From NCBI GenBank assembly GCA_027624315.1, contig JAQBXX010000008.1, positions 1 through 45,359 of the forward strand: a stretch of 45,359 nt of DNA. The letters are read 5' to 3'. A program made the translations under genes and the position numbers. The notes below the pieces were generated by a model. The model was not told the DNA's origin and made no database searches. It saw only the letters and a list, made by a program, of their open reading frames with translations. This stretch comes from Pseudomonadota bacterium (GTDB lineage: Bacteria; Pseudomonadota; Gammaproteobacteria; SURF-13). This document shows positions 20,830 through 23,090 of this stretch, piece by piece (position 1 is the first letter of the stretch; each line of letters opens with the position of its first letter).

Positions 20830-20841
20830 GCGCCTGATTAC

Positions 20842-21033
20842 GGGCACCTCTAAACATGCGTCTTTTGCTCCAATACTGCGTTGCAGCTTGTCTCCGCTGC
20901 TCACATACTAACTTGTATGCTGTGCTGTACAGGGACGTACGAATGTCGCGGGCGCAGGACGCGCAGGAGCGACCGCTGCTCGACGGCGCTGCGCCTTGTC
21001 TTAAAGCAAAATCCATCATTTTTAGAGGCACCT
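20842..21033. repeat. Long imperfect palindrome ending in CTCTAAA/TTTAGAGG
   Basis: The spacer between acyP and the thioredoxin-like gene is bounded by GGGCACCTCTAAA (20842-20854) and TTTAGAGGCACC (21021-21032), inverted except for the last bases. The middle has a CATAC/GTATG centre (20904-20919) with flanking GCTGCTC/CTGTGCTG words. No gene is seen. A half copy of the end motif (CACCTCTAAAAA) recurs at about 26152-26164. The element ends one base before the stop codon at 21034. Confidence 0.6.
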
Positions 21034-21663
21034 TTATTTTGGCCTGGATTTTCCGGCACCGGTTTGAAACTGTGGGGGCGGTGATTTAATGAATGCCTCA
21101 ATGGACTCTGCGTTTATGCGCCCCAGATGCTGTGCTGCAATCTCACCGTTCGGCGCAATAAGATATGTCACCGGCAGACCGCGCACAGGGCCCAGCGGCG
21201 AATCGTATCTCGAACCGCCACGCAGCACCGGGTAGTCCATCAAATGATCATCCATGAACTCACGCAGGGACGGCACACTGATGTCTTCCATGACCACGCC
21301 CAGCACTACGGCATCCTTGTTTTTGTGTCGGTCATAGAACATCACCAGATCGGGGATTTCCTGCAGGCAGGGCGGGCACCAGGTGGCCCAATAGTTCACT
21401 ACCACCCACTTGCCGCGATAGTCCGACAGCTTGTGGCTCACGCCGTTGACATCGAGCAGTGTGAAATCATTGCCCTTCGCCGCTGCAGACGATATCCACA
21501 GCGCGGCAAAAAGGATTAAACTGGCTGTAATCAAATTGATGCGCACCGCGCGGTATGAACCCGCGCGGGCGACCCAAGGGGAGAGTTGCACTTCTCCCCT
21601 TTGGAAACCCCAAGGCTTCGAGCCCGCAGCAAGCTGCGGGGTATAAATTAAATTGACGCGCAT
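21034..21663 (-). CDS. TlpA-like periplasmic thiol-disulfide protein with hairpin insertion near its start
   Basis: Redoxin-family protein, probably exported or membrane-tethered. The active site is WATWCPPC, with the family YRGKWVVVNYWATWC lead and the cis-Pro region GLPVTYLI. It is likely to reduce or isomerise disulfides, for instance in cytochrome maturation, but the partner is unknown. Two starts compete: an ATG at 21663 with a GGGGG site, giving 209 residues, and an internal GTG at 21546, giving 170 residues that begin just before the hydrophobic signal segment LITASLILFAALWI. The 101 bases between them form a hairpin cluster flanked by near-identical 16-base repeats, so the outer start was probably created by insertion. 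It diverges from fumC. Confidence 0.82.
   Translation of the reverse strand: MRVNLIYTPQLAAGSKPWGFQRGEVQLSPWVARAGSYRAVRINLITASLILFAALWISSAAAKGNDFTLLDVNGVSHKLSDYRGKWVVVNYWATWCPPCLQEIPDLVMFYDRHKNKDAVVLGVVMEDISVPSLREFMDDHLMDYPVLRGGSRYDSPLGPVRGLPVTYLIAPNGEIAAQHLGRINAESIEAFIKSPPPQFQTGAGKSRPK
21547..21647. repeat. In-frame hairpin cluster inserted at a gene start
   Basis: Three stem-loops lie side by side: CCGCGCGG/CCGCGCGG (21546-21568), CCAAGGGGAGA/TCTCCCCTTTGG with one bulge (21573-21604), and CCCGCAGC/GCTGCGGG (21623-21640, perfect). The cluster is flanked by 16-base direct repeats at 21531-21546 and 21648-21663 that match at 13 positions. The repeat period of 117 bases is 39 codons, so reading frame is kept. 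Confidence 0.8.
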
Positions 21664-21695
21664 ACAGCCCCCACACATCGCACAGCACAACCGAC

Positions 21696-23090
21696 ATGAA
21701 TGATATCAGTTTCCGCATCGAGAGAGACAGCCTGGGTGAGATGAAGGTTCCCGCTCAGGCGTGGTTTGGCATTCAAACCGCGCGCGCCGTGGCCAACTTC
21801 CCGATCAGCGGGCGCGGCCCGGACCGGGACTTCACCCTCGCCCACGTGCGCATCAAACGTGCGGCGGCGGTCGCCAACCGGCAATGCGGCTGGCTGAAGG
21901 ATGATCTTGCCAACGCCATCACGGCGACGTGCGATAAAATTCTTGCAGGCGAGTATCTCGACCAGTTCGTGGTGGACCGCTTTCAGGCAGGTGCCGGCAC
22001 CAGTCACAACATGAACAGCAACGAGGTGATCGCCAACCTCGCCAATGTCACGCTCGGCGCCGAGCGTGGTGTCTACCGCCCGGTGCACCCCAACGATCAC
22101 GTCAACATGGGGCAGAGCACCAACGACACCATCCCCACCGCCATCCGCCTCGCGGCGCTCGCCAAACTGCCGCGCCTCATCGCCGCGGTACAGACTATGG
22201 CCGGCGAATACGCGCGCATCGGCGCACGCGAGGCCGACACCGTTAAAAGCGCCCGCACCCATTTACAGGACGCCGTGCCCACCACCGTGGGGCGCGAATT
22301 CAATGCCTACGCCTGGACGCTCACGCGCTGCATCGAGCGTCTGCGTGAAACCCACGCGCCGCTGTGCGACATCGGCCTCGGCGGCACCGCTGTCGGCACC
22401 GGCCTCAACACCGCGCCGGGCTACCTCGAAAAGGTCACAGCGGAACTCGCGCGCCTGACCGGTGAACCGCTGCGCCCGGCACACAACCTCGCGGCACAGA
22501 TGCAGTCGATGCTTGACCTGCAACACCTTTCCCATGCGATCCGCGCGCTCGCGCTTGAACTCACGCGCATCTCGAATGATATGCGCCTGCTCGCCTCCGG
22601 CCCGCGTACGGGCCTGGGCGAGATCACGCTGCCCGCAGTGCAACCCGGCTCCAGTATCATGCCGGGCAAGGTCAACCCGGTGATGTTTGAGATGCTGAAC
22701 CAGGTGTGCCATCAGGTGATCGGACAGGACGCCGCCGTCGCCGCGATGACGCAGGCCGGGCAGCTCGAATTGAACGTGATGATGCCCGCGCTCGGCTCGG
22801 CGCTGTTTGATGCGCTGGACTGGCTCACCAACGCCATCAACGCCACGACGGAATTTAATCTCAAAGGACTCACGGTCGACCGTGAACGCTGCAAGGACTT
22901 CCTGCACCAGAGCGTGGCGCTGGCCACACTGCTCAACCCCAGCATCGGCTACGAACAGGCCGCCAAGATCGCCCAGGAATCCGAAAAGACCGGACGCCCG
23001 GTGCGTGATATCGTGGCGGAACGCGGACTCATGACGCATGAAGCGTTCGATGCGCTGGTGCTGACAGCCGCGCGCGCGGGGCTGCTATAA
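21696..23090 (+). CDS. fumC: Class II fumarate hydratase
   Basis: Oxygen-stable, iron-free fumarase of the TCA cycle, reversibly hydrating fumarate to malate. The 464 residues include the signature loop GSSIMPGKVNP, the NMNSNEVIAN segment and TVKSARTHLQDAVPTT with the active-site His. Class II aspartase is the main look-alike, but the sequence pattern is that of fumarase. It diverges from the TlpA-like gene by about 30 bases and converges on prfC across a palindromic terminator. Confidence 0.94.
   Translation: MNDISFRIERDSLGEMKVPAQAWFGIQTARAVANFPISGRGPDRDFTLAHVRIKRAAAVANRQCGWLKDDLANAITATCDKILAGEYLDQFVVDRFQAGAGTSHNMNSNEVIANLANVTLGAERGVYRPVHPNDHVNMGQSTNDTIPTAIRLAALAKLPRLIAAVQTMAGEYARIGAREADTVKSARTHLQDAVPTTVGREFNAYAWTLTRCIERLRETHAPLCDIGLGGTAVGTGLNTAPGYLEKVTAELARLTGEPLRPAHNLAAQMQSMLDLQHLSHAIRALALELTRISNDMRLLASGPRTGLGEITLPAVQPGSSIMPGKVNPVMFEMLNQVCHQVIGQDAAVAAMTQAGQLELNVMMPALGSALFDALDWLTNAINATTEFNLKGLTVDRERCKDFLHQSVALATLLNPSIGYEQAAKIAQESEKTGRPVRDIVAERGLMTHEAFDALVLTAARAGLL

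Follow-up and report, generated by a model that had tools for sequence, protein, structure and literature searches.

The window, a stretch of 45,359 nucleotides, contains a thioredoxin-like gene (AhpC/TSA, TlpA-like; positions 21034–21663, minus strand) whose beginning is present twice, with palindromic DNA in between. Where does the extra DNA come from, and which of the two starts is translated? The 16-mers at 21531–21546 (tcaaattgatgcgcac) and 21648–21663 (ttaaattgacgcgcat) have the same base at 13 of their 16 positions, the period being 117, just as the original prediction stated; their best-matching core, aaattga(t/c)gcgca, agrees at 12 of 13 positions between the inner copy (21533–21545) and the outer copy (21650–21662). 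The period equals 39 codons, and the minus-strand frame is indeed open through the insert and into the AhpC/TSA, TlpA-like domain. As predicted, an ATG of the outer repeat (21661–21663) stands at the place occupied by a GTG in the inner repeat (21544–21546). The gene encodes 209 residues from the ATG, residues 1–39 being contributed by the insertion, and 170 residues from the GTG.

The body of the insert (21546–21649; the consensus orientation is that of the plus strand) is missing at the corresponding gene of two congeners, G002 and G001, whose proteins are 89% and 71% identical and lack the 39 residues. Because these congeners have an empty site, the insertion is real and recent, and the proposal of an in-frame insertion is borne out. 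Of the codon differences in the gene, counted over 150 codons, 15 are synonymous and 9 nonsynonymous. The open frame might be taken to mean that the 39 residues form an N-terminal domain conserved in the protein. However, in a protein alignment they are present in the window protein only and absent from four orthologues, no relative carries them, the insertion is missing entirely from the relatives' homologues, and the same sequence recurs in intergenic regions. The domain reading is thus refuted, and we give it practically no weight.

The inserted segment is matched at 18 further places of its own 1.43-Mb genome (E 1e-42 to 2e-4; best 1.5e-42), indicating that it is not a chance sequence. Including the TlpA copy itself there are 19 matches, about 15 of them near full length, and the body aligns with these and with copies from relatives. 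By these alignments, the insert belongs to a family of dispersed palindromic repeats about 120 bp in length, for which the consensus is roughly CAATTTGATTTCGCACCGCGCGGTATGAAACCGCGCGGGCGACCAAAGGGGAGAGTTGCACTTCTCCCCTTTGGAAACCCCAAGGCTTTGAGCCCGCAGCAAGCTGCGGGGTATGAATTAA. All five genomes of the same family (G001–G005), as well as G006 and G033 from other families of the same class, carry the repeat, either several times or in at least one unambiguous copy. Most copies are intergenic; only two of the approximately 15 lie clearly inside coding sequence. The frames of the element are stop-poor on both strands, and 62 open frames run through 28 copies, compared with 38 expected. The Rfam 15 covariance models give no match to the repeat at gathering score.

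Several copies (L012, L019, L023, and L013) end right before a start codon or right after a stop codon, the genes being uvrA-like, ccmC-like, radC-like, and nfeD-like as named by inspection; in some of them, GGGG of the element lies about 11 bases 5' of the ATG. In L018, L025, and L039, the first two being copies of the own genome, the middle hairpin is about 80 bases larger and contains additional palindromes (e.g. GGGCGGACATGGATGTTCGCCC). Other repeats are found nearby as well. A third hairpin-rich repeat (GGAATCTCTGATTTATTCAGAGATTCC...), with tens of copies in G003 and G005, adjoins a family copy (right flank of L014; G000 C25, about 2505–2660). A second inserted repeat of about 190 bp, with the ends GGCACCTCTAAA...TTTTAGAGGCACC, occupies 20836–21034 of the window, between the acylphosphatase and TlpA-like genes; its site is empty in G002, and it has 48 matching pieces in the own genome and many in G001, G002, and G004.

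The DNA between the direct repeats is composed of three consecutive hairpins, in accordance with the original prediction. It folds far better than its dinucleotide shuffles on both strands tested (z = -4.7 for DNA and -3.9 for minus-strand RNA; none of 200 shuffles equals it). Hairpin 1 (21546–21568; ccgcgcgg/ccgcgcgg) is enclosed by TCGC...GCGA in the family. Hairpin 2 (21573–21604) is the core, CCAAAGGGG...CCCCTTTGG in the family and CCCAAGGGG here, and is followed on its 3' side by an unpaired AAACCCC (21605–21611), highly conserved in the family alignment and in the core search of public genomes. Hairpin 3 (cccgcagc-aa-gctgcggg) occupies 21623–21640. Across 28 copies, 94% of the pair cells have standard pairing, and compensatory changes are observed in 14 of 34 stem pairs (six of nine in hairpin 1 and four of eight in hairpin 3), compared with 5.9 in shuffles, which do not keep the relatedness of the copies, and 2–5 in slid controls, which do. 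The hairpins of the family are therefore supported by compensatory changes.

The left end of the TlpA copy is unusual. The terminal 13 nt or so of the element are replaced by target sequence: three columns differ from 19 of 19 other family copies and equal the gene sequence, while outside the left end the copy departs from the family at few positions. Both direct repeats are collinear with the start of the relatives' gene, the outer one with that of G002; the inner one is a gene-derived start region that includes the three columns. We therefore dropped the idea that the left repeat is simply the element's own end. These columns indicate that 13 bp of the gene start are genuinely duplicated and that this copy is without the left end of the element. 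At seven other copies (L010, L011, L012, L013, L015, L018, and L019), comparison with empty sites of relatives reveals 0–2 ambiguous A/T bases and no long duplication, indicating that the 13-bp duplication is atypical of the family and not its signature. The direct repeats thus stand as a real duplication of the gene start, but not as a target-site duplication typical of the element. Two further copies, L016 and L020, are common to G002 and therefore older, and L023 has an apparent decayed counterpart in G003.

A copy that lacks the family left end need not have arisen by ordinary transposition; template switching and gene conversion are possible alternatives. The atypical duplication would be accounted for by a template switch from another copy or by an integration event of another type. 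For microhomology-mediated switching in particular, gene sequence stands in the left terminal columns of the element, the consensus and the target share CGCA at the left junction and AA or AAATT at the right, and duplications are absent at other copies. However, there is a single such copy, and the shared stretches are short and may be due to chance; nor is the likeness of the target flanks to the element left end significant (p 0.07, 15 copies), so preferential insertion into sites resembling that end is not supported either. We consider template switching a tentative explanation, conceivable but on the unlikely side.

The TlpA-like gene is not the only coding sequence that the family has entered. 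The gene at 113–931 on the minus strand of L011, which we take from its conserved sequence to be aat, encoding Leu/Phe-tRNA-protein transferase, contains an in-frame insertion of the same repeat that adds 40 residues. Its product has 272 residues, compared with about 230 in congeners (net +40 over G002), and the insert is absent in six relatives. With dN of 0.051 and dS of 0.258, and with 12 synonymous and 3 nonsynonymous changes on the G000 branch compared with 16 and 4 on that of G002, aat is not decaying and is still under purifying selection. In the predicted Aat structure, which is based on a shallow alignment, the insert is a low-confidence loop (residues 90–124). The element is read in one orientation in the TlpA-like gene and in the other in aat, which is possible because it is stop-poor in frames of both strands.

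Which start is used in the TlpA-like gene? The net gain from the insertion is 117 bp, or 39 stop-free codons, located between two copies of the gene start. The outer ATG, in place of which the congeners have GTG, is preceded by a Shine–Dalgarno-like GGGGG (21668–21672) that is common to G002. The calculated anti-Shine–Dalgarno duplex energy is -8.5 kcal/mol for the outer start and -8.4 kcal/mol for the G002 orthologue, as compared with -3.9 kcal/mol for the inner GTG. As the outer ATG keeps the ancestral Shine–Dalgarno sequence and the inner GTG has none, the likeliest product, judged from these sequence features, is a protein that starts at the outer ATG and carries a 39-residue leader, MRVNLIYTPQLAAGSKPWGFQRGEVQLSPWVARAGSYRA. 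The original prediction that the insertion created a second start and a possible leader is thus partly right: the start is duplicated and the leader is probable, but it is the outer start that is ancestral, and the new duplicate is the inner GTG.

The inner GTG could still be used as a start. If it were the main one, the insert would be effectively 5'-untranslated, and its hairpins would act solely on the mRNA, through stability or attenuation, or on the fumarase-like gene, which is divergent and 32 bp distant. In line with this, the RNA hairpins are strong, GTG is the start codon in congeners, most family copies are intergenic, and REPs at the 5' ends of genes are often judged non-coding (PMC3733652). 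However, the inner GTG has no Shine–Dalgarno sequence and is located at the foot of hairpin 1, the open frame continues in register through the insert, and the copy in aat shows that the family does enter coding sequence. We therefore find an untranslated insert rather doubtful, and favor translation from the outer ATG. The structure prediction of the TlpA-like protein is too low in confidence to be informative (mean pLDDT 51). The TlpA-like and fumarase-like (lyase family) genes are divergent, with 32 bp between their start codons (21663–21696) and a similarly close spacing in G002. At such a distance, the insertion may have displaced promoter sequence; a consensus scan finds no sigma-70-like site.

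We propose that the element is a non-autonomous, MITE-like palindromic repeat that is moved in trans by a putative enzyme. After the split from the congener G002, a copy would have integrated into the first codons of the divergently transcribed TlpA-like gene, an event that duplicated 13 bp at the beginning of the gene. The ancestral start, which is now the outer ATG, is most likely still the one used in translation, and the protein would carry a probably disordered leader ahead of its hydrophobic signal or anchor segment. The insertion is probably tolerated without being of use, like the palindromic elements of Rickettsia. We estimate the probability of this account as a whole at about 85%.

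No transposase can be assigned to this role: tests for Y1/RAYT and for IS66 transposases are both negative, and it is for this reason that we call the repeat MITE-like and mobilized in trans. In addition, neither terminal inverted repeats of useful length nor a consistent target-site duplication is found in the family. A REP element mobilized by a RAYT (Y1 tyrosine transposase), as in GTAG/CGTC repeats, would account for small palindromes in many copies, mostly with no clear target-site duplication, and the own genome has four Y1_Tnp genes. However, the core is near none of 32 Y1_Tnp loci examined, a set that covers the two stronger of the four own Y1_Tnp genes. In G002, the element has seven matches but there is no Y1_Tnp match, several other carriers (Legionellales SP151, Coxiella sp., and two Clostridia MAGs) have copies but likewise no Y1_Tnp match, and the RAYT tags are not conserved (GTAG in 2, CTAC in 4, CGTC in 4, and GACG in 2 of 28 copies, with no common place). 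Mobilization by a RAYT is thus improbable. IS66 is rejected as a helper, as none of the hosts G000–G005 and G033 has a match to the IS66 transposase (PF03050).

The core extends well beyond the relatives. A search of public genomes from about 85,000 species finds its exact form, GCGACCMAAGGGG-(8-22)-CCCTTTGGAAACCCC, in 104 stretches from several phyla, in uncultured Gammaproteobacteria, Chromatiales, Legionellales and Coxiella-labelled MAGs, Syntrophobacter and other deltaproteobacterial MAGs, and a few Clostridia; these carriers are metagenome-assembled genomes, and single taxon assignments may be wrong. There is none from Rickettsiales among the 80 core matches listed. A similarity search of plasmids yields no copy, and the exact core pattern is absent from viral contigs. 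By inspection, the TCGC-hairpin-GCGA unit precedes the core in most of the wider stretches, and the genes recurring beside the core in other genomes are repeat-derived frames and ordinary genes, with no apparent transposase. In one MAG, JAHJDE, the core lies within an IS66-like MITE (L091, L103, L111, L138, L177, and L178) with GTAACTATTCAG terminal repeats and, on inspection, apparent 8-bp target-site duplications (e.g. GGCAACCG in L091). The single IS66 gene of JAHJDE has no GTAACTATTCAG MITE ends within the stretch examined. The core is unusually constant across distant phyla. TCGC-hairpin-GCGA and CCAAAGGGG-hairpin-CCCCTTTGG-AAACCCC could form a cross-phylum mobile module, read as folded single strands by a putative recombinase or transposase and also carried inside other mobile elements such as the JAHJDE MITE; we regard this as speculative and, at present, unlikely.

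How does the family relate to known repeats? The Rickettsia palindromic elements (RPE-1 and others; Ogata et al. 2000, as cited in PMC2229807) are dispersed stem-loops of 105–146 bp, both intergenic and in frame in conserved genes. The family resembles them in its stop-free, in-frame insertion into conserved genes with tolerance by the host protein (39 codons in the TlpA-like gene and 40 in aat). However, it has three hairpins and a near-invariant core, whereas an RPE is one long palindrome with terminal repeats, and its phylogenetic range is different. GTAG/CGTC REPs with RAYTs (PMC3733652) are likewise short palindromes, mostly between genes and sometimes intragenic, but the family has no conserved tag, no association with a Y1 transposase gene, and a longer composite unit. 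The MITEs Correia/NEMIS, ERIC, and YPAL (PMC2229807), and QMITE2 of Coxiella (PMC5896051), which has a small REP-like version, are small non-autonomous repeats with strong stem-loops; the mobility of YPAL was inferred from empty and filled sites (PMC2229807). The family is also dispersed, short, and non-autonomous, with empty and filled sites, but it lacks clear terminal inverted repeats and a constant target-site duplication (0–2 bp at seven sites), and the searches for Y1 and IS66 transposases reveal no partner element. The JAHJDE MITE (L091, L103, and L138) shares the core and the TCGC-hairpin-GCGA unit, but differs from the family in having GTAACTATTCAG ends and 8-bp duplications; moreover, no IS66 match is present in the hosts of the family. 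A search of open-licence papers for the core motif returns no relevant match. We rate the repeat as a new family of a known kind, that of MITE-like, RPE-like coding palindromes, set apart from RPE and QMITE2 by their descriptions.

For annotation, the 39 residues at the start of the TlpA-like protein should be treated as repeat-derived. The best-known coding palindromes with in-frame entry into conserved genes are those of Rickettsia and a few other lineages. Our results add a small-genome, uncultured gammaproteobacterial lineage to their hosts, with insertion events placed by empty and filled sites, one of them in aat.
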